Of a stretch of 64,000 nucleotides of DNA, positions 1 through 58,337 are shown one piece after another. Both the position numbers and the translations under genes were made by a program. The stretch lies in assembly GCF_900116065.1 (NCBI RefSeq), contig NZ_FOZV01000003.1:1-64000 (forward strand), in the 5' to 3' direction. The number at the start of each line of letters is the position of its first letter. Position 1 is the stretch's first letter. The stretch comes from Brevundimonas viscosa (GTDB taxonomy: Bacteria > Pseudomonadota > Alphaproteobacteria > Caulobacterales > Caulobacteraceae). The notes beneath the pieces are model-generated. The model searched no databases. It had not been told where the DNA came from and was given only the letters and a program-made list of their open reading frames with translations.

Positions 1-333
1 TCGCGCCGGGCAAGCCCCAGCAGAACGGCTTCAACGAGAGCTTCAACGGCCGTCTACGGGACGAGCTGCTGAACGAAACTCTGTTCCGGTCGCTGCCACA
101 CGCCCGCATCGTGCTGGAATCCTGGCGGCGCGACTACAACGAAGCCCGGCCGCACTCCAAGCTCGGCTGGCTGACGCCAAAGGCCTATGCCGAGGCGCTT
201 GACCGGAAAGATCGGCCGGCCTGCTGCGCTGGTTGATGGCTGCGCAGACCGGCCTCTTGCCAACCCCAACAACCCCAGCTCAGATCAACTACGGACTCTT
301 GTTATGGCTGGATGAGAAACGGGGGTCACGTCA
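1..333 (+). mobile_element. 3' end of an IS3-family insertion sequence
   Basis: The window opens inside an insertion sequence whose transposase reads toward the right. After the transposase stop there are about 97 non-coding bases ending in GGGGGTCACGTCA; the final CA fits the TG...CA ends usual for IS3-type elements, so I place the right edge at about 333. Immediately beyond it the minus strand reads into cytochrome oxidase subunit I, so the element sits inside that gene. The left end and the target duplication are outside the window, so the exact edge may be a few bases off. Confidence 0.75.
3..236 (+). CDS. IS3-family transposase OrfB, C-terminal fragment
   Basis: This is the last 77 codons of a DDE (rve-type integrase core) transposase, cut by the window start. 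The segment [20 protein letters not shown] contains the final glutamate of the DDE triad, and the following [16 protein letters not shown] is the typical C-terminal signature of IS3-family OrfB proteins, where a tyrosine-asparagine pair and an RPH motif precede the last helix. It stops at TGA 234-236. Whether the upstream part, including OrfA, is intact cannot be seen from this window. Confidence 0.85.
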
Positions 334-1375
334 GCAGCGACACCGCCATCGACGCGGCCGAGAAGAAGCTGGTCGAGATGGTCGGCATGCCTGTGGTGAA
401 CATGTGGTGGGCCCACACGCCGAAGCTGATGAAGCCCGTGGCCAGCATGGCCAGCACCACCAGCCGGTAACCGACCAGCCGGGTCCTCGCCATGGCCGGG
501 ATGATGGTCGACATCGCCCCCGCCGCCGGCAGGAAGATGATGTAGACCTCCGGGTGGCCGAAGAACCAGAACAGGTGCTGCCACAGCAGCGGATCGCCGC
601 CCTTCAGGGCGTCGAAGAAGGGCCAGCCCAGCGCCCGCTCGACCTCAAGCAGCAGGGTCGACAGGATGATCGACGGGAAGGCGATGATGATCATGCAGGC
701 GAAGATCAGCATCGCCCAGGCGAAGATCGGCAGCTTGTCCAGCGTCATGCCCGGCGCGCGGTTGCGCAGCACCCCGACGATGATCTCGATGGCCCCGGCG
801 ATGGCCGAGATCTCGATGAAGCCGATGCCGAGCAGCCAGAAGTCGGCGTTGATGCCCGGCGAGTAGGTGGTCGAGGTCAGCGGCGGGTACATGAACCAGC
901 CGCCGTTCGGGGCCAGGCCGAAGAAGATCGAGCAGAAGAAGGCCAGACCGCCGATCAGATAGGCCCAGAAGGCGTAGGCCGACAGCCGCGGGAACGGCAG
1001 GTCGCGCGCGCCCACCATCTGCGGCAGCAGCAGCACCCCCAGCGCCTCCACCGCGGGCACGGCGAACAGGAACATCATCACCGTGCCGTGCACGGTGAAC
1101 ATCTGGTTGTAGGTCTCCTGAGGCAGGAAGCCGTTCATCGGCAGCGCCAGCTGCGTGCGCATCAGCAGCGCCAGCACCCCCGCCAGCACGAAGAACAGCA
1201 TGGCCGCGCCGACGTAGTAGACGCCGATGAAGTTGTTGTTGATCGCCGTGATCCACTGCCAGCCCTTGGGGCCGCACCAGACCTGCTCCAGCGCCTCCAG
1301 CTCTCCCTTCGGCCGCGGCCCCTTGGTCGGGAAGCGCTCGTAGAGTCCCGGGTCGAACCCCGTCTCGCCCTTCAT
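334..1375 (-). pseudogene. ctaD: cytochrome c oxidase subunit I, truncated by the IS element
   Basis: The frame starts at ATG 1375 and encodes the N-terminal 347 or so residues of a heme-copper oxidase subunit I. It keeps the helix VI copper-B motif (GHPEVYIIFLPA) and the paired histidines of helix VII (WAHHMFTTGM), then runs SAASMAV and enters the insertion sequence, where it ends at a TGA within about three codons. The missing part would carry helix X with the ligands of both hemes, so the remnant cannot be a working oxidase. The start overlaps the stop of coxB (ATGA). Family members are about 530-600 residues, or about 830 when fused to subunit III. A downstream remainder may lie left of the IS, outside the window. 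Confidence 0.9.
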
Positions 1376-2325
1376 TCGAGGCTCTCGAGCCAGGCCGAGA
1401 CGTCACGCAGCTCCTGTCCGGTCAGCACCGGATAGGCGGGCATGCGATTGCCGGGTTTGATCGACTGGCTGTCGGCGATCCAGCCGGCCAGCGTTCCCTG
1501 GTTGTTGGGCAGGATGCCGGCTCCCAGCGTGCGGCGCGAACCGACGTGGCTGAGGTCCGGCCCCGCCAGACCATTGAACGCGGTCCCGGCCACCGTGTGG
1601 CACGCCCCGCAGCCGGCGCGATCGAACACCGCCGCTCCCGGATGCGACGTCGCGGCGGCGGGGGCCGGCGCCGCTTGTCGCGCCCGCCAGACCTCGAAGG
1701 CCGCCGGCTCGTGCGCCACCACGACGAAGCCCATCAGGGCGTGGGGGCCGCCGCAGTATTCGGCGCACTGTCCGCCATAGACGCCGGGCGCGTCGGCCTG
1801 GATGCGCATCAGGTTGCGACGCCCGGGGATCATGTCGACCTTGCCGGACAGACGGGGGACCCAGAAGCTGTGGATCACGTCGGCGGAGTCGAGCTCCAGG
1901 ACCACCGGCCGTCCCACCGGAATGTGCAGCTCGTTGGCGTCCTGCAGCGCCTCGCGCCCATGCGCGTCCAGATAGGCGACGCGCCACCACCACATTTCCC
2001 CGGTGACGCGCACCCGCATCTCGCCCGCCGCCGGCTCCTCGGTGAGGCGGCTCGTCAGACCGAGGCCGTAGATCAGCAGGGCGCTGAGCACGACCACCGG
2101 AAAGGCCAGCCCGCCGATCCAGATCAGCCGCTCGCCGCCCAGCCGCGCGCGCCAGCGCCGCGGTCCGAACAGGGCGACGCCCAGCGCGACCAGCACGATG
2201 ACCAGCACCGCTGCGGCCATGGCGAACAGCACCCAGGCCAGCACGTTCAGCGGTCCGGCGAACGGTCCCGCCGGGTCCAGCGCCGGCGGCGGCCAGCCGG
2301 ACGTTCCGGGCGTCGGGGCGGTCAT
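1372..2325 (-). CDS. ctaC: cytochrome c oxidase subunit II with fused cytochrome c domain (caa3 type)
   Basis: The product has 317 residues. Two membrane helices lie near residues 25-54 and 68-90, followed by a cupredoxin domain with the full CuA set: H152, then C187, E189, C191, H195 and M198 in GGQCAEYCGGPHALMG. After an Ala/Pro linker there is a cytochrome c domain with heme site CGACH (C239, C242, H243) and a likely axial Met at 295. The electron entry subunit of a caa3-type terminal oxidase therefore carries its own cytochrome c. It overlaps the upstream cytochrome gene and downstream ctaD by four bases each, so the three are translationally coupled. No signal peptide is evident. With ctaD broken, this subunit has no local partner. 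Confidence 0.93.
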   Translation of the reverse strand: MTAPTPGTSGWPPPALDPAGPFAGPLNVLAWVLFAMAAAVLVIVLVALGVALFGPRRWRARLGGERLIWIGGLAFPVVVLSALLIYGLGLTSRLTEEPAAGEMRVRVTGEMWWWRVAYLDAHGREALQDANELHIPVGRPVVLELDSADVIHSFWVPRLSGKVDMIPGRRNLMRIQADAPGVYGGQCAEYCGGPHALMGFVVVAHEPAAFEVWRARQAAPAPAAATSHPGAAVFDRAGCGACHTVAGTAFNGLAGPDLSHVGSRRTLGAGILPNNQGTLAGWIADSQSIKPGNRMPAYPVLTGQELRDVSAWLESLE

Positions 2326-2681
2326 TGCAGCGTATAGAGCCAGGCGGCGACGTCGCGCGCCTCGGCTTCCGTGATCCGGGTCGCCGGCATGCCGGTCTCC
2401 GGAGCCATCGACGGCGCGTCCCGCACCCATCGCACCAGGTTGTCGGGCTGGTTCGGGAACCTGCCGGCGATCAGCGAACGGCCGCCGAAGCCTTCCAGCG
2501 AAGGGCCTGCCGCGCCCCGCGGCCACGCGATCCCGGGCGTCTCGTGGCAGGCGGCGCAGCCCACCTTCCGGGCGACCTCCAGCCCACGCGCCGGATCGGC
2601 GCCCGCGATCTCGCGCGGTCCGCCGCTCTTGTCGGAGCAGGCTGCGGTCAGCAGCGCCAGCAGCACCGCCCGCCCCTTCAC
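2322..2681 (-). CDS. small c-type cytochrome, first gene of the oxidase operon
   Basis: The 119-residue product begins at a GTG, chosen because the next residues form a hydrophobic export signal (about 2-15) ending at a cysteine at 15, possibly a lipoprotein anchor although the lipobox is weak. A single heme site CAACH (C42, C45, H46) and a C-terminal GMPATRITEAEARDVAAWL helix with the axial Met are typical of class I cytochromes. The stop overlaps the coxB start in ATGA. It probably delivers electrons to, or forms part of, the caa3 oxidase encoded downstream. The longer open frame upstream of this GTG is judged non-coding. Confidence 0.8.
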   Translation of the reverse strand: MKGRAVLLALLTAACSDKSGGPREIAGADPARGLEVARKVGCAACHETPGIAWPRGAAGPSLEGFGGRSLIAGRFPNQPDNLVRWVRDAPSMAPETGMPATRITEAEARDVAAWLYTLQ

Positions 2682-2795: not shown

Positions 2796-3524
2796 ATGCG
2801 CGCCCTCCTGTCCTCCGGTCTGATCCTGTTCGCCGCGGCCTGCTCGGGAACCGACAGCCGGTCGACCGCGGGCTTCACGGCCGACGGCCAGGTCATCGCC
2901 ATGAGCGGCGGCGAGGGCGGCGCGTCCAACGCCTGCTTCAGCTGCCACGGCCTCGACGGCATGGGCGACGGCGTCAGCGTACCCCGTCTCGCCGGCCTCG
3001 ACGCCGGCTATCTGCAGAAGCAGCTCGAGGACTACGCCGGCCGGCTTCGCGACGACCCCGCCATGTACGAGGCCGCCCGCTGGCTCGACGACGACGATCG
3101 TCGCGCCGTCGCCGCCTGGTACGCCGCCCTCCCCGTGCCGCCGGGCGCCGCCGCAACCGCCCCGCCGCCGCCCGTCTGGCTGAGCGGCCGTCCCGGGGCC
3201 GTCGTCCCCGCCTGCGCCGTCTGTCACGACGCGCAGGGACAGGGCGTCGGCCCCGGCAATCCGGCCGTCGCCGGCCAGCCTGCCGCCTACACCCTCGACC
3301 AGCTGCGCCGCTGGAAGACCGGCGGACGCCGCAACGATCCCCGCAGCGTCATGTCGGACGCCGTCGCCGGCCTGACGGAAACGGAGATGCGCGCCATAGC
3401 CGCCTGGCTCGAGACCGCACCCATTGCTCCGCCGCCAGCCAGCGACGCTGCCACCGCGTCCGCTTCCGCGGCAGCTGCGGCACGACCGGAAGCATCCCGT
3501 GGAGTACGTCGTCCCGGTCGATGA
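2796..3524 (+). CDS. diheme cytochrome c4-like protein
   Basis: The 242-residue product starts with a hydrophobic signal (residues 1-16, with a cysteine at 16) and has two cytochrome c modules with heme sites CFSCH (47-51) and CAVCH (140-144), a layout like cytochrome c4 or the diheme cytochromes of alcohol dehydrogenases. A Pro/Ala linker (about 112-127) separates the modules. It is divergent from the oxidase operon, with 114 bases between the starts that must hold both promoters. The last 40 or so residues are Ala-rich and overlap the minus-strand b561 gene by 176 bases, so the true C-terminus could be altered by an old rearrangement. Confidence 0.85.
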   Translation: MRALLSSGLILFAAACSGTDSRSTAGFTADGQVIAMSGGEGGASNACFSCHGLDGMGDGVSVPRLAGLDAGYLQKQLEDYAGRLRDDPAMYEAARWLDDDDRRAVAAWYAALPVPPGAAATAPPPPVWLSGRPGAVVPACAVCHDAQGQGVGPGNPAVAGQPAAYTLDQLRRWKTGGRRNDPRSVMSDAVAGLTETEMRAIAAWLETAPIAPPPASDAATASASAAAAARPEASRGVRRPGR

Positions 3525-4083
3525 GGTGGTGCTTCAGCGCCGCCCCGACATGGATGGGGATCATCAGCAGCAAGGTCAGGATCAGGCCCCAGTGGGTCCA
3601 CTCGGCGACCGCCTCCACCTGCCAGCGCGTCGTCAGGTCTAGGTTCTGCATCGGCATCAGCGGCCAGGGCACGAAGCCCAGCAGGGTCAGGTCCTCCTCC
3701 CGCGCCGTCGCCGAGATCATCGCCCAGCCGCTCAGCGGCAGGCCGAACAGGCAGGCGTAGAAGACGTAGTGGGTCACGTGCGCCGCCATGCTCTCCCAGC
3801 CGGGCTTGTCGGCGTCGTTGATCGGCCCCGGGGCCAGCGTCCGCCAGGCGCCGCGCCCCAAGGCCAGCACCAGCATCAGCACGCCGATCGCGTAATGCAG
3901 GTCGTGGGCCGCGACCTTGTCGCCGCCCACCGGCAGTCGCCCCATCCACCAGCCCCAGAACAGCTGGAGGATCACCAGCCCCGCCATGGTCCAGTGGAAG
4001 ATGATGGCCACCGGCGAATAGCGGCCCTCGTCGTGATGACCGGCCGCCCATTCGAGGACGTAGCCCGTAATCTTGACGATCAT
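3349..4083 (-). CDS. cytochrome b561-family membrane protein
   Basis: The 244-residue product starts at ATG 4083, which overlaps the stop of ctaG (ATGA). It shows four hydrophobic helices in the first 190 residues with histidines suitable for two b-type hemes: HWTMAG in helix I, HDLHYAIG in helix II, HVTHYVFY and HVGAALKHH near helix IV. This matches the prokaryotic cytochrome b561 (CybB/Ni-hydrogenase cytochrome b) family of quinone-linked electron carriers. The last 50 residues are Arg/Trp-rich and overlap the convergent diheme cytochrome gene. Its place after a PQQ dehydrogenase and ctaG suggests a respiratory role, but its partner is unknown. Confidence 0.85.
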   Translation of the reverse strand: MIVKITGYVLEWAAGHHDEGRYSPVAIIFHWTMAGLVILQLFWGWWMGRLPVGGDKVAAHDLHYAIGVLMLVLALGRGAWRTLAPGPINDADKPGWESMAAHVTHYVFYACLFGLPLSGWAMISATAREEDLTLLGFVPWPLMPMQNLDLTTRWQVEAVAEWTHWGLILTLLLMIPIHVGAALKHHLIDRDDVLHGMLPVVPQLPRKRTRWQRRWLAAEQWVRSRARRLWRASPFPSGRRRRPT

Positions 4084-4805
4084 GCCGCGCCGGCCCCGGC
4101 CCTGGCGTCCGGCCCGATCCAGCGGCCGAGGGTCAGCAGCGCCGCCGCCAGATAGACCGCCGCCGCCGGCGCCCACATGATCAGCCCGGCCGCCTGCTGG
4201 TCCTCCAGCGCCGTCAGCCCCCACGCCGCGGTGGTGAGCAGATGCGGTGCATAGACCGGCTGGCCGGCGAAGGTCAGCAGGGCCCCGAGCAGGCCCATGG
4301 CCACCATCGCGATCAGCAGCTGGGCCACCGCCGCCGGTGCGGAGGCGCATCGCACCCCGGCCCAGAACCATAGCGCTGTGCCCAACAGGCTGGTCTGCAT
4401 CAGCCAGTAGGCGGCGTCGTGCGACAGCGCCCAGGCGTAGGCGCCGGGGGCGTGCCAGATCCAGAACGCGACCGCCTGCGCCGCCGTCGCCAGCACGAGC
4501 GGGCCGGTCCTCCGGGCCGGCAGGGCCCAGGCCAGCAGCGGCGCGGCGACGGCGACCAGCAGCACGTGATGGACGGTGCGGGCGGCGAACAGGGCCGAGC
4601 TCAGCGCGCACAGGGGCGAAACGAAGCTGATCGCCAGCACACCGGTGGCCGCCAGCCCCAGCGCCCGCTCGCGCCCGCGCGCGCGCCAGGCGAACACGAC
4701 CGCCGCCGCCAGCAACCCGGCGATCAGCACCGGGTCGAGGTTCCAGCGCCACTCGCCCCCGGCCGGCGCGGGCCCGCAATACGGCAGCCAGACCGCGCTG
4801 TTCAT
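4080..4805 (-). CDS. ctaG: cytochrome c oxidase assembly factor CtaG, caa3 type
   Basis: The 241-residue integral membrane protein has about seven hydrophobic helices. It carries the histidines conserved in the caa3-type CtaG family (ARTVHHVLL, FWIWHAPGAY, YAPHLLTTAAWGLTALEDQQAAG). The family is linked to copper insertion into heme-copper oxidases, which fits the neighbouring caa3 oxidase genes. The start overlaps the stop of the PQQ dehydrogenase and its own stop overlaps the b561 start, each by four bases, so the three genes form one translationally coupled unit. The family is distinct from the periplasmic Cox11-type CtaG. Confidence 0.85.
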   Translation of the reverse strand: MNSAVWLPYCGPAPAGGEWRWNLDPVLIAGLLAAAVVFAWRARGRERALGLAATGVLAISFVSPLCALSSALFAARTVHHVLLVAVAAPLLAWALPARRTGPLVLATAAQAVAFWIWHAPGAYAWALSHDAAYWLMQTSLLGTALWFWAGVRCASAPAAVAQLLIAMVAMGLLGALLTFAGQPVYAPHLLTTAAWGLTALEDQQAAGLIMWAPAAAVYLAAALLTLGRWIGPDARAGAGAA

Positions 4806-7333
4806 CGCTCGGGCAGCGCCCAGGCGATCACCTGGTCGCCCTTCGGCGTCTCCATGAAGTGGTGCCCTCCGGTCATCAGGACCAGATACTGCCGCCCATC
4901 CTGCTCATAGACCATCGGCCCGGCCTGGCCGCCGGCCGGCAGCGCCTCGGACCACACCGTTTCGCCGGTCTCGATGTCGATAGCGCGGATCAGGTCGTCG
5001 GTGGCGGCGGCAATGAAGACCAGCCCGCCCGCCGTCACCACCGAGCCGCCGTTGTTGGGCGTGCCGATGTCGATCGGCAGCATCGACGGAATGCCGAACG
5101 GGCCGTTCTTCCGCGCCGTGCCCAGCGGCCGGTCCCACACCGTGCGGCCGGTGCGGATGTCGATGGCCCGGATGCCCCCGTACGGGGGCTGCTTGCACAG
5201 CATGCCGGTCGACTTCATCCGCCAGCCGGCGTTGACGTCGATGGCGTAGGGCACGCCCCACTGCGGGTCGCCCGCCCCCTCCGCGCCCTCGGGCACGCCC
5301 CCGCGCGACTCCGGGGTCTGCTTCTTCAGCCGCGGGTCGCCGCGCGGGAACCAGCCCTTCTCGTTGGCCTCCTCGCGGGGCACCAGCCGGTTGTAGTTCG
5401 GCATGTCGTTGTAGTTGGCGATGATCCAGCCGCGTCGCGGATCGACCGCCACCCCGCCCCAGTCCGAGCCGCCGTTGTAGCCCGGATACTGGATCCAGCG
5501 GCGGTCCGCGGTCGGCGGGGTGTACATCCCCTCGTACGCCGCCTGCCGGAAGCCGATGCGGCAGATCATCTGGTCGATCGGCGACATGCCCCACATGTCG
5601 CGCTCGGTCAGGGCCCGCTTGGCCAGGGTGTGGAAGCCCGAGAACGGCTGGGTCGGGGTGCGCTGGTCCGGCTCGACGCCGCCGCCCGGCACGCGCCGCT
5701 CCTCCACCGGCGTCAGCGGCCGCCCGGTGCGCCGGTCCAGGATGTACAGGTCGCCCTGCTTGCTGGGCAGCACCAGCGCCGGGACCATGGCCCCGCCGAC
5801 GGGATAGTCGATCAGCGTCGCCTGCGACCCAAGGTCGTAGTCCCAGACGTCCCGGTGCACGGTCTGGAACGACCACGCCGGGCGCCCCGTCGTGACGTCC
5901 AGCGCCACCAGAGATGTGGCGTACCGGTTCTCCGCCTCCGACCGGTCGGAGCTGTAGTAGTCCGCCGCCGAGTTGCCCATCGGCAGGTAGACCAGCCCCA
6001 GCTGTTCGTCGCCCGAGGCCGTGGTCCACATGTTCGGCGTGCCGCGGGTGAAGCTGTCGCCCGCCTCCGGTCGCCCGGTCAGGTCCGGCCGCGCCATGTC
6101 CCAGGCCCAGCGCAGCTCGCCGGTGACCGCGTCGAAGCCCTGGATCACCCCCGACGGGGCCTCGTTGTACTGGCCGTCCAGCACCTGGTGGCCGGTGACC
6201 ACCACCCCGCGGACGATGGTCGGAGCCGAGGTGATCGACACCATGCCGGGGATGACCTCGCCCATGCCGACCTTGATATCGACCGACCCGTTGTCGCCGA
6301 AGTCGGCGCAGGGCCGGCCCGTGCGGGCGTCGACCGCAATCAGGCGGCCGTCCAGCGTCCCCTCGATGATCCGCCGGGCGCAGGCCGCGGCGGCCGGGGC
6401 GGGCGACGCAGCGGCCGGGGCCGCGGGGGCGGGCCTCGTCCGCGCGCCCGTCGCCGGGGCGCCCTGCGGCATGGCGACCGTCGGAGCGGTCGCCGTCGGC
6501 GCGGTCCCGTTCGCTGCCGCGGCGACGTCGTAGTAGGCCACGCCCCGGCAGGCGGCGGTGTAGGGGATCCACTCGTCCGACACCTGCGGATCGTAGCGCC
6601 AGCGCTGCTCGCCGGTGCGCGCATCCAGCGCGATCAGCACATTGCGCGCCGAGCACAGGTAGACCGTGTCCCCGACCTTCAGGGGCGTCGTCTCCGCCCC
6701 CCACTTGTCCTCGGGCAGGTCGCCGGTGCGGTAGGTCCACACCCGCTCCAGCCCGCCGACGTTGTCGCGGGTGATCTGCGCCAGCGGCGAGTAGCGCCGG
6801 GCGCTGTAGGTCCCGCCATAGGCGGGCCAGTCGGCGCCGACGTCCCGCAGCGACGGCTCCGTCATTCCGGGCAGCAATCCGCCCGCGCCCGGTTGGGGCG
6901 TCATCGGCCGGTTGGCCTGGGCGACGGCCACGCCGAAGCCGACAGCGCCCAGCGCGAACACGCCGCCGGCGATCAGCGCCAGCCGTCCGCCACGGCGGCG
7001 ATCAAGCACCGGAAGAGCGGCGATCACGGCGATCAGCAGGACGGCGGGGGCGACGAGGCGCGGAACCAGCGCCCAGCCGTCCAGCCCCACCTCCCACAGC
7101 GCCCACAGCACGGTCAGGACGAAGACGGAGACGTAGATCCACGCCCCCGCCGGCCGGAGCCGGAACAGCATCACGCCTGCCGCGACGATGCCGAGTCCGG
7201 CCAGCAGGTAGTAGAACGAGCCGCCCAACGACAACAGCCACGCGCCGCCGCCGACCAGGATCGCACCGATCAGGAGGAACACGGCCGCCAGCAATCTCAC
7301 CGCCCAGCCGCCTGCTCCGGTTCGCCTCGCCAT
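4802..7333 (-). CDS. gcd: membrane-bound PQQ-dependent dehydrogenase (glucose/quinate/shikimate family)
   Basis: The 843-residue product has five predicted membrane helices in residues 12-138, then a large periplasmic quinoprotein beta-propeller. Recognisable propeller segments include DWPAYGGTYSARRYSPLAQI, the W-motif repeats such as GEQRWRYDP and GRPAWSFQTVHRDVWDYDLG, and the C-terminal IGTPNNGGSVVTAGGLVFI. Such enzymes oxidise sugars or cyclic polyols in the periplasm and pass electrons to ubiquinone. An Ala/Pro-rich stretch at about 271-318 interrupts the propeller and is unusual. The gene heads an operon with ctaG and a b561 cytochrome. No pqq synthesis genes are seen here, so the cofactor must come from elsewhere. 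The substrate cannot be told from sequence. Confidence 0.9.
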   Translation of the reverse strand: MARRTGAGGWAVRLLAAVFLLIGAILVGGGAWLLSLGGSFYYLLAGLGIVAAGVMLFRLRPAGAWIYVSVFVLTVLWALWEVGLDGWALVPRLVAPAVLLIAVIAALPVLDRRRGGRLALIAGGVFALGAVGFGVAVAQANRPMTPQPGAGGLLPGMTEPSLRDVGADWPAYGGTYSARRYSPLAQITRDNVGGLERVWTYRTGDLPEDKWGAETTPLKVGDTVYLCSARNVLIALDARTGEQRWRYDPQVSDEWIPYTAACRGVAYYDVAAAANGTAPTATAPTVAMPQGAPATGARTRPAPAAPAAASPAPAAAACARRIIEGTLDGRLIAVDARTGRPCADFGDNGSVDIKVGMGEVIPGMVSITSAPTIVRGVVVTGHQVLDGQYNEAPSGVIQGFDAVTGELRWAWDMARPDLTGRPEAGDSFTRGTPNMWTTASGDEQLGLVYLPMGNSAADYYSSDRSEAENRYATSLVALDVTTGRPAWSFQTVHRDVWDYDLGSQATLIDYPVGGAMVPALVLPSKQGDLYILDRRTGRPLTPVEERRVPGGGVEPDQRTPTQPFSGFHTLAKRALTERDMWGMSPIDQMICRIGFRQAAYEGMYTPPTADRRWIQYPGYNGGSDWGGVAVDPRRGWIIANYNDMPNYNRLVPREEANEKGWFPRGDPRLKKQTPESRGGVPEGAEGAGDPQWGVPYAIDVNAGWRMKSTGMLCKQPPYGGIRAIDIRTGRTVWDRPLGTARKNGPFGIPSMLPIDIGTPNNGGSVVTAGGLVFIAAATDDLIRAIDIETGETVWSEALPAGGQAGPMVYEQDGRQYLVLMTGGHHFMETPKGDQVIAWALPER

Positions 7334-7730: not shown

Positions 7731-8153
7731 ATGCGCGCCGAACAGATGATCGCCACCCACCCGCACGTTCGCGGCGAGGTCAACACCGCCCTCGCCCGTT
7801 GCGTCGAGGCCTGCTTCGACTGCGCCCAGGTTTGCGCCTCCTGCGCCGACGCCTGCCTCGGCGAGGAGATGGTCGCCGAGCTGGTGCAGTGCATCCGCCT
7901 GAACATGGACTGCGCCGACGTCTGCCTGACCAGCGGCCTGATCGCCACCCGTCGTTCCGGCGGCGACGTGCCGGTGATCGAGGCCCAGCTGCGCGCCTGC
8001 GAACTGGCCTGCGCCCGCTGCGCCGCCGAGTGCGAACAGCACGCCGAAAAGCACGAGCACTGCCGCATCTGCGCCGAGGCCTGCCGCGAATGCGAGCGCG
8101 CCTGCCGCGACGCCCTCGCCAGCCTGCCGCGCAGCAGCACCGCGGCGCACTAG
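7731..8153 (+). CDS. cysteine-rich four-helix-bundle copper-storage protein (Csp/DUF326)
   Basis: The 140-residue protein contains 18 cysteines, mostly as CxxxC or CxxC pairs along predicted helices (ARCVEACFDCAQVCASC, MDCADVC, ACELACARCAAEC, CRICAEACRECERAC). This is the pattern of Csp proteins, four-helix bundles whose inner cysteines hold many Cu(I) ions. There is no export signal, so it resembles the cytosolic Csp3 type. The start has GGGAGC upstream. Its closeness to cytochrome oxidase and ctaG genes suggests a role in copper buffering or supply, which is an inference from context. Confidence 0.85.
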   Translation: MRAEQMIATHPHVRGEVNTALARCVEACFDCAQVCASCADACLGEEMVAELVQCIRLNMDCADVCLTSGLIATRRSGGDVPVIEAQLRACELACARCAAECEQHAEKHEHCRICAEACRECERACRDALASLPRSSTAAH

Positions 8154-55772: not shown

Positions 55773-55919
55773 TCAGCCCATGAACGGCAAGGCCCTGAGC
55801 GCATAGGCGACCGCCGCCGTGACCGCCGAGGCGGCGACGGCGAGACCGAGGAACCAGGCCAGGCGCTTCCACAGGGGGCCGGGAGATTCACCGGGCCCGG
55901 GCGGGGGCTCGATCCTAAT
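55773..55919 (-). CDS. DUF2474-like small subunit of the bd oxidase
   Basis: A short frame after cydB encodes GPLWKRLAWFLGLAVAASAV and then TAAVAYALRALPFMG, a single membrane helix preceded by LWKR, the pattern of DUF2474 proteins found after cydAB of cyanide-insensitive type. It lies in the same unit and strand. No ATG, GTG or TTG starts it; the frame reads through an ATT at 55919 that overlaps the cydB stop, or a CTG nearer the helix. The start is therefore unsettled, but the sequence match and position are convincing. Confidence 0.7.
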   Translation of the reverse strand: MRIEPPPGPGESPGPLWKRLAWFLGLAVAASAVTAAVAYALRALPFMG

Positions 55920-56940
55920 GATAGCCGGCCTCCGGCGTGACCTTGCCGCGGAACACCCAGTAGACCCAGCCGGTGTAGGCGAGGATCAGCGGCAGGATGA
56001 CCACCGTGCCGACCAGCATCAGGGCGAGCGCGTTGTCGGGCGCGGCGGCGGCGCGGAAGTCGACGCTGTACGGCGCGACATAGGGGAAGAAGCCGGCGGC
56101 AAGGCCCGCGTAGCCCGACAGGAAGACCAGCACCGCACCGACGAAGGGCCAGCCGTGGGAGGCCCGTCGTACGCCCCAGCCGACCAGGCCCAGGCCGATG
56201 AGGCCGAGCAGCGGAATCCAGGCCAGCGGCAGGAAGCGGCCGAAATCGAGCCCCCCTCCGGTCCAGCCCCAGCGCTCCGCCACCACCGGGTGAACCACCA
56301 GTGTCGAAAGGCTGACGCCGACGAGGAACAGGGCGGTCAGCACGCCGGAGATCACCGCCCAGCGGCGGGCGTCGCCGTGCAGCTCGTCGGCGGTCTTCCA
56401 CATCAGCCAGGCGGCGCCGAGCAGGGCGTAGCCGCAGACCAGACCGGCGGCGACCAGCAGGGTGTAGGGGGTGAACCAGTCGAAGGTCCCGCCCGCGAAG
56501 CGGTCGTCGACCACCTCGATGCCCTGGATGAAGCCGCCGAGGATCAGACCCTGGGCGAAGGCGGCGAGGATGGAGCCGAAGGCGAACATGGCCGTCCAGA
56601 ACGGGCGGCCGCGGCGCTGGCCGCGGAAGCGGAACTCGAAGGCCACGCCGCGCAGGATCAGGCCCGCGAGCATCAGGATCACCGGCAGGTAGAAGGCCGG
56701 CATGACGATCGAATAGGCCAGCGGAAACGCCGCCAGCAGGCCGCCGCCGCCCAGCACCAGCCAGGTCTCGTTGCCGTCCCAGACCGGGGCGACAGTGTTC
56801 ATCATCACGTCCCGGTCCTCCTTGTTCCGCGAGAAGGGGAACAGGATGCCGACGCCGAGATCGAAGCCGTCGAGCAGGACGTAGAGCAGCACGCCCGTGG
56901 CGATCAGTCCGGCCCAGATCAGGGGGAGGTCGAGGCTCAT
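55915..56940 (-). CDS. cydB: cytochrome bd-type ubiquinol oxidase subunit II
   Basis: The 341-residue membrane protein shows the CydB start PLIWAGLIATGVLLYVLLDGFDLGVGIL and VAPVWDGNETWLVLGGGGLLAAFP, with about eight helices. It pairs with CydA to form the quinol oxidase. The start overlaps the cydA stop and the stop overlaps the DUF2474 frame. The form is that of the cyanide-insensitive oxidase (CioB). Confidence 0.93.
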   Translation of the reverse strand: MSLDLPLIWAGLIATGVLLYVLLDGFDLGVGILFPFSRNKEDRDVMMNTVAPVWDGNETWLVLGGGGLLAAFPLAYSIVMPAFYLPVILMLAGLILRGVAFEFRFRGQRRGRPFWTAMFAFGSILAAFAQGLILGGFIQGIEVVDDRFAGGTFDWFTPYTLLVAAGLVCGYALLGAAWLMWKTADELHGDARRWAVISGVLTALFLVGVSLSTLVVHPVVAERWGWTGGGLDFGRFLPLAWIPLLGLIGLGLVGWGVRRASHGWPFVGAVLVFLSGYAGLAAGFFPYVAPYSVDFRAAAAPDNALALMLVGTVVILPLILAYTGWVYWVFRGKVTPEAGYH

Positions 56941-58337
56941 GACGGATCTCCCGGAGCGTCCTCGGGGGCGGCGGCGAGCGGGGTGCCGGGGGCGCGCTGG
57001 CCCTCGGGCTTCGGCTCGGCGGCGCCGGCGACCGGGCCCTCTCGCAGCAGACGGAGGACGTAGATCGCGCCCGCGACGAAGACGATGGCGTAGACGGTGA
57101 CGTAGATCAGCAGCGAGGTGGCGACCGAGCCGGCGGTCACCGGCGAGACGGCGTCGGCGGTGCGGACGAGGCCCTGCACCACCCACGGCTGGCGGCCGAC
57201 CTCGGTGACGACCCAGCCGGCGACCACCGCCACGAAGCCGGACGGCCCCATGAGGACGGCGAAGCGGAGGAACAGCCGGTCGTCGGCGAAGCGCTTGCGC
57301 CACACCAGCCAGGCGCCCCAGAGGCCGAGCCCGAGCATCAGCACACCCAGTCCCACCATGACCCGGAAGCTCCAGAACACGATGAAGACCGGCGGCTGGT
57401 CCTCCGGCGCGAAGGCGTCGAGGCCGGTAACCACCTCGTCGGCAGGGGCGACCAGCACGCCGCCGCCGGGAATGGCCAGTTCGAAATGGTTCGACTGCGT
57501 GGCCCGGTCGGGGATGGCGAAAAGGATCAGCGGGTGGTTGGCGTCGGTCTCCCAGTAGGCCTCGATAGCGGCCAGCTTCTGCGGCTGGTGGTCCTTGGCG
57601 ACGAGGCCGGACTCGTGGCCGACCAGCACCTGGACCGGGGCGAGCACGGCGATCAGACCGATGGCCATCTTCAGGGCCAGGCGGCTCTCCTCCTGGCCGC
57701 GGTTTCGCAACAGCTGGAAGGCCGAGGCGGCGCCGACCACGAGCGCCGTGGTCAGGAAGGCGGCGATCAGCATGTGCGCCAGCCGGGTCGGGAAGCTGGG
57801 ATTGAAGATCGCCTCCATGAAGCTGGTGGCCACGATGCGGCCGTCGGCCAGCACCTCGTAACCCGCCGGGGTCTGCATCCAGCTGTTGGCCGAGAGGATC
57901 CAGAAGGCCGAGATGGAGGTGCCGATCGCCACCAGGCAGGTGGCGAGGAAGTGCAGCCTCGGCCCGACCTTCTTCCAGCCGAACAGCATGACGCCGAGGA
58001 AGGAGGCCTCGAGGAAGAAGGCGGTCAGCACCTCGTAGGCCAGCAGGGGGCCGATGACCCCGCCCGTCAGGCGGATGAACTCCGACCAGTTGGTGCCGAA
58101 CTGGTAGCTGAGCACGATGCCGGAGACGACGCCCATGCCGAAGCTGATGGCGAAGACCTTCACCCAGAACAGGTAGAGGGTCTTGTATGCCTCGCGCTTC
58201 GTGCGCAGCCACAGGCCTTCCAGCACCGCGAGGTAGGCCGCCAGACCGATGGTGAAAGCCGGGAAGAGGATGTGGAAGGCGACGGTGAAAGCGAACTGAA
58301 GCCGCGACAGGATCAGGGCGTCGTATTCCAAGGCCAT
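56937..58337 (-). CDS. cydA: cytochrome bd-type ubiquinol oxidase subunit I
   Basis: The 466-residue protein has the heme-ligand helix RLQFAFTVAFHILFPAFTIG, SYQFGTNWSEFIR, the GRQPW motif region (EVGRQPWVVQGLVRT) and heme b558 ligands. The quinol-binding loop is short, as in cyanide-insensitive oxidases (CioA), which lack the long E. coli insertion. Such enzymes have high oxygen affinity and resist cyanide, NO and sulfide. It heads the operon. With the caa3 subunit I broken, it is the only complete terminal oxidase in the window. Confidence 0.94.
   Translation of the reverse strand: MALEYDALILSRLQFAFTVAFHILFPAFTIGLAAYLAVLEGLWLRTKREAYKTLYLFWVKVFAISFGMGVVSGIVLSYQFGTNWSEFIRLTGGVIGPLLAYEVLTAFFLEASFLGVMLFGWKKVGPRLHFLATCLVAIGTSISAFWILSANSWMQTPAGYEVLADGRIVATSFMEAIFNPSFPTRLAHMLIAAFLTTALVVGAASAFQLLRNRGQEESRLALKMAIGLIAVLAPVQVLVGHESGLVAKDHQPQKLAAIEAYWETDANHPLILFAIPDRATQSNHFELAIPGGGVLVAPADEVVTGLDAFAPEDQPPVFIVFWSFRVMVGLGVLMLGLGLWGAWLVWRKRFADDRLFLRFAVLMGPSGFVAVVAGWVVTEVGRQPWVVQGLVRTADAVSPVTAGSVATSLLIYVTVYAIVFVAGAIYVLRLLREGPVAGAAEPKPEGQRAPGTPLAAAPEDAPGDPS

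Follow-up and report, generated by a model that had tools for sequence, protein, structure and literature searches.

The window analysed here is a stretch of 64,000 nucleotides, bases 1-64000 of contig C11 in the draft assembly of Brevundimonas viscosa (the source genome, G000; 3.0 Mb in 19 contigs). It opens inside an insertion sequence (IS) and continues into a broken gene for cytochrome c oxidase subunit I, beside which lie other genes of the same oxidase. The features of the window, and of other parts of the genome to which we refer below, are:

1-333, plus strand: right end of an IS3-family (IS407-like) element that runs off the contig, recognized by an rve_3 Pfam match and by a boundary common to eight right ends
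within 1-333, plus strand: DDE transposase, C-terminal part only (3-236), and terminal inverted repeat, which finishes in GGGGGTCACGTCA at 333
334-337, strandless: right copy of the target duplication GCAG, the left copy being at C13:25621-25624
334-1375, minus strand: ctaD codons 1-347, the 5' portion of the gene for subunit I of a caa3-type oxidase
1372-2325, minus strand: open coxB frame of 317 aa for a caa3-type subunit II, with a CuA domain and, C-terminally, a cytochrome c domain (PF00116, PF00034)
2322-2681, minus strand: small c-type cytochrome, open frame (PF13442, PF00034)
2796-3524, plus strand, opposite to its neighbors: c-type cytochrome with two PF00034 stretches (PF00034, PF13442)
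3349-4083, minus strand: cytochrome b561 family protein (PF01292)
4080-4805, minus strand: caa3-type ctaG assembly factor, open (PF09678 Caa3_CtaG, 86.7 bits against a cut-off of 27.7)
55915-58337, minus strand: genes of a bd-type quinol oxidase (cydA, cydB), both frames open
C11:359-365 kb: canonical aa3 cluster (coxB, ctaD of 554 aa, ctaE)
C9: cbb3 oxidase genes ccoN, ccoO and ccoP, each over its cut-off
C9: nitric oxide reductase of the NorB kind (PF22085 and COX1)
L004, L006, L008, L009 and L010, at G000 contig ends: IS right ends in the set with unmatched flanks

The ctaD open reading frame (1375-326, minus strand, 349 aa) reads through ...WAHHMFTTGM...FFSAASMAVSL, passes the IS boundary by two codons and ends at a stop (326-328) within the IS, in line with the original prediction of a frame intact through WAHHMFTTGM and ending a few codons inside the element. 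In profile searches this N-terminal half matched positions 2-283 of 436 of COX1 (PF00115) and positions 1-308 of 504 of TIGR02891 (CtaD), and a COX1 search of the same genome located the missing positions 283-436 at C13:25178-25627. The remainder of ctaD occupies C13:24140-25624 (at least 495 codons); the IS starts at C13:25625 with TGACGTGACCCCC, and the ctaD sequence stops exactly there. Neither half reaches the TIGR02891 cut-off of 670.75 bits (422.3 and 232.5 bits), each being a fragment. GCAG borders the IS directly at its left end as well as at its right end; for two 4-mers drawn at random from the window, the probability of agreement is 0.0085. When the flanks are joined with one copy of GCAG, they give a single open frame of 846 residues with the junction ...AASMAVSLPAGVQVFAWIAT..., and no further stops or frameshifts were seen in either half or in the joined frame; the IS insertion is therefore the only lesion found in ctaD. 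None of the 19 aligned relatives has a break in the junction stretch, which varies slightly in 18 and more strongly in the diverged G020. Thus the claim that an IS3 element breaks ctaD is borne out by the rve_3 match, the shared boundary at 333 and the matching left end on C13, and what had been proposed to be sought beyond the contig edge, namely the left IS end, a target duplication and the rest of ctaD, was all found on C13, with GCAG on both sides. The loss of helix X from the window fragment was also correctly called: the segment AHLHYVL, which presumably provides heme ligands, sits in the C13 half. We take helix II and the CuB histidines to lie on one side of the break and helix X on the other.

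The broken gene is assigned to a caa3-type oxidase because subunit II combines CuA and cytochrome c domains in one 317-aa protein and the CtaG encoded nearby is a Caa3_CtaG protein. CoxB scored 149.6 bits against TIGR02866 (cut-off 147.7) and is 95% identical to its sister-genome counterpart over the full length; for CtaG the identity is 91% over 237 residues. The GTG start of the small cytochrome was placed by eye at 2681, and the protein was searched from 2678. About 345 C-terminal residues of the joined 846-aa subunit I have no Pfam match. The name ctaD given at the outset holds in the sense of a cytochrome c oxidase subunit I; it does not hold in the sense of the canonical ctaD, as the gene encodes rather the 846-aa subunit I of a caa3-type accessory oxidase. 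The rest of the operon had been called intact, and indeed the neighboring frames are open, with coxB and ctaG full-length against the sister genome where compared. Directly upstream of ctaG lies a gene for a membrane-bound PQQ-dependent dehydrogenase (4802-7333, minus strand; TIGR03074, 956.6 bits), and the same neighborhood is seen in the related genome G010. The frame at 7731-8153 (plus strand), near the genes of the copper-dependent oxidase, encodes a small protein that is rich in cysteines and repeats CxxxC-like motifs; it has a counterpart in G010, and we assume that it resembles copper-storage (Csp-like) proteins.

A caa3-type oxidase with Caa3_CtaG, as it appears in excerpts of its description (PMC9145763), shares with the Brevundimonas enzyme a heme-copper family subunit I, a subunit II that ends in a cytochrome c domain and a nearby Caa3_CtaG gene, whereas the Brevundimonas subunit I has the C-terminal extension of about 345 residues and is broken. 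The coxMNOP oxidase, compared by its description in excerpts (PMC5492768), is likewise a further accessory heme-copper oxidase present beside others; its CoxM has two heme c sites, whereas the Brevundimonas subunit II has one cytochrome c domain and is accompanied by a separate small cytochrome c gene. Among the matches listed for literature on the IS group, Brevundimonas oxidases, ctaD with an insertion sequence and caa3 or coxMNOP oxidases, the excerpts do not describe the present case.

The IS was read in the source genome as two ends. Window positions 3-233 (plus strand) match rve_3 (E = 4.9e-29) and also rve_2, and encode the C-terminus of an IS3-type transposase; they belong to the DDE integrase core of OrfB, only the C-terminal part of which is on the window contig. 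OrfA, on the opposite end of the element, is represented by HTH_Tnp_1 (PF01527) at L017:2012-2236 (E = 1e-27). The boundary at 333 is set by the last 20 bases common to the eight right ends of the genome, right after which the sequences diverge. Besides the query, seven copies of the right end showed 99-100% identity over 324-341 bases, with an eighth, partial match at 87% over 76 bases; this near-identity fits an element that has recently been active. The HTH-type OrfA and DDE OrfB pieces, the TG...CA ends, the 4-bp target duplication (GCAG at the ctaD site) and the length of complete relatives in other Brevundimonas genomes (1269-1272 bp) are all shared with the IS407 group (e.g., ISPmar2), and no differences were seen in these two ends. 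Seven complete copies from elsewhere in the genus were parsed out of eight stretches fetched, and an exact 4-bp duplication was present in four and absent in three. In excerpts of a published study (PMC3281130), ISPmar2 of Paracoccus marcusii is given as 1269 bp with a 4-bp repeat; repeats of 4 bp are likewise listed for ISPam3 and ISPfe1, with 2 bp for ISPbe1; the IS407-group elements in its table are of similar length and mostly have 4-bp repeats. At E <= 0.001 the right IS end has some match, often a short one, in 56 of 131 genus genomes, and megablast returned only one match to a similar copy on a named plasmid (41 bases at 95.1%).

The source genome holds eight right and eight left IS ends. 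Three of the eight left ends pair exactly with a right end by their 4-bp flank, and three or more such pairs arose by random draw in less than 1% of trials. For the other five (L048, L050, L052, L053 and L054) there is no right end with matching 4 bp. Closing the assembly by pairing IS ends through their 4-bp flanks was rejected, since only three of eight left ends pair. The five unmatched left ends hint at IS-mediated rearrangements in the source genome. In front of the left IS end on C7 (L066, C7:4075-5066) stands TGACGTGAC, which repeats the tip of the IS, and an IS copy in G062 (L158) shares this flank, GACGTGAC. It looks as though insertion occasionally takes place next to the end of a related IS.

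Based on these observations, we consider that an IS407-group IS3 element recently broke the subunit I gene of a caa3-type oxidase in a cell that probably relies on its aa3, cbb3 and bd oxidases for respiration, a reading to which we assign a probability of roughly 95%. An assembly error at the contig edge had been anticipated as a danger to the prediction; the contig end would then have been falsely attached to a repeat, and the strain itself would carry an unbroken ctaD. The window is indeed a contig start, and no more than about 60 bases separate all eight right ends and seven of the eight left ends from the ends of their contigs; nevertheless, an artefact is very unlikely given two independent junctions, 290 and 333 bases inside their contigs and at exact IS termini, and a shared 4-bp duplication that restores the frame, which a false join is not expected to yield. 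The sister genome G010, uninterrupted and colinear, also speaks strongly against it. For this relative the nucleotide identity is 92.97% over 2460 sites, and in one of its contigs the sequences matching the C13 and window flanks meet at a single point, where they share the duplicated bases, with colinearity of about 8 kb on each side of the site at 89-94% identity. As read by eye, the next gene after ctaD on C13 has almost the same final residues as its G010 counterpart. The 19-kb G010 stretch contains two short N runs, one of them a gap of 13 N in ctaD, some 140 bases away from the site, and the IS pieces had no match in this stretch at the limit used. G010 carries IS-end pieces elsewhere, at contig ends, 100% identical over 82-95 bases; thus the IS is common to G010 and the source genome, and the ctaD insertion is not. 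The two ctaD halves are on different contigs, their adjacency in the strain is not directly seen, and an IS-mediated rearrangement after the insertion could have separated them. With the N-terminal part as query, no second copy of the broken ctaD was found in the source genome, the only other match being the canonical aa3 subunit at 38% identity, and the prediction is therefore not undone by a second intact ctaD in the same operon context.

Across the genus, the N-terminal half of the gene was present in 64 of 131 genomes at E <= 1e-90, the source genome included, with at least 78% identity in 58 and 55-58% in six. In all 57 other genomes with a copy at least 78% identical, ctaD is uninterrupted at the IS site; the halves abut in the same contig in 56 of the 57 (53 with a complete C-terminal half), G010 being the case shown separately above. 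A frame of at least 840 aa was found in 60 of the 64, and a shorter frame for the N-terminal half in G000, G006, G023 and G126. The pieces in G006, G023 and G126 stop at a contig end or no more than 5 bases from one, and G103 and G106, which were cut in the search with the C-terminal half, are likewise cut at or near contig ends; the IS pieces had no match in the G126, G103 and G106 stretches. These cuts show no second disruption in the genus, though a contig end can hide another insertion. A diverged long subunit I (55-58% identical) was the best match in G020, G078, G090, G111, G118 and G144, and these six copies were judged by frame length only.

The age of the insertion was approached through lineage-specific codon changes. 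The numbers of silent to replacing changes were 39:9 in G000, 67:15 in G006 and 52:12 in G010, leaving out 25 three-state codons and codons missing in any of the three genomes. The broken ctaD shows no rise of replacing changes, and counts of such size exclude old decay only. On sequence grounds the insertion is recent, and the earlier suggestion to that effect agrees with codon-change ratios like those of intact relatives and no visible decay. No point was found in support of the opposite view, in which the insertion is old and ctaD an old pseudogene; as neither half contains a stop, the joined flanks read as a single frame and the share of replacing changes resembles that of intact relatives, we regard it as scarcely credible. 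The same open, undecayed reading frame would also suit an insertion that is not fixed, the population being mixed or the element leaving at some rate, so that some cells still make the oxidase. IS3 elements move by a copying route, however, and their precise departure is rare; the draft, moreover, shows the interrupted form only, and an unfixed insertion seems quite improbable. A fixed, recent insertion thus remains our preferred reading.

The remaining oxidase genes were compared with their profile models. In the canonical aa3 cluster, coxB scored 189 bits against 147.7 and ctaD 704.2 against 670.75, while ctaE matched subunit III models below their cut-offs; two further genes between these are presumably a ctaB-like and a Cox11-type ctaG-like gene. 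CydB scored 162.4 against a cut-off of 117.3, and cydA remained below the cut-offs of two cydA-type models (best 288.2 against 968). The frames of the aa3, cbb3 and bd genes are open, and a PF00115 search of the genome gave five matches: two are the fragments of ctaD, and the other three are the intact heme-copper genes of the aa3, cbb3 and NorB enzymes. The original prediction that the strain would depend on other oxidases such as the bd type was right in kind; it was too narrow, missing the aa3 and cbb3 clusters.

Taken as a sequence of events, an IS407-group IS3 element would have transposed into codon 347-348 of ctaD, antisense to the gene, and the transposition would have duplicated the 4 bp GCAG. 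The part of subunit I with helix II and the CuB histidines would have been separated from the part with helix X, and because of this separation the caa3 oxidase would hardly be assembled. Judging from gene content, the cell would probably respire with its aa3, cbb3 and bd oxidases. We infer a loss of caa3 activity with no severe phenotype, the broken oxidase being probably redundant. Since the genome still carries genes for other oxidases, the event can be seen as an ordinary gene knock-out. It is also conceivable that the insertion was favored, the loss of an accessory caa3 oxidase being advantageous in the habitat and the strain a snapshot of repeated loss; the presence of the gene in about half of the genus genomes (64/131) would fit this, but we consider it unlikely.

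For the draft, the recent knock-out means that the subunit I fragments of two separate contigs belong to a single gene, interrupted by one IS, which has little import beyond annotation. If true for the organism, the strain would recently have lost one of at least four oxygen-reducing oxidases, and it would offer a natural knock-out to compare with sister strains.
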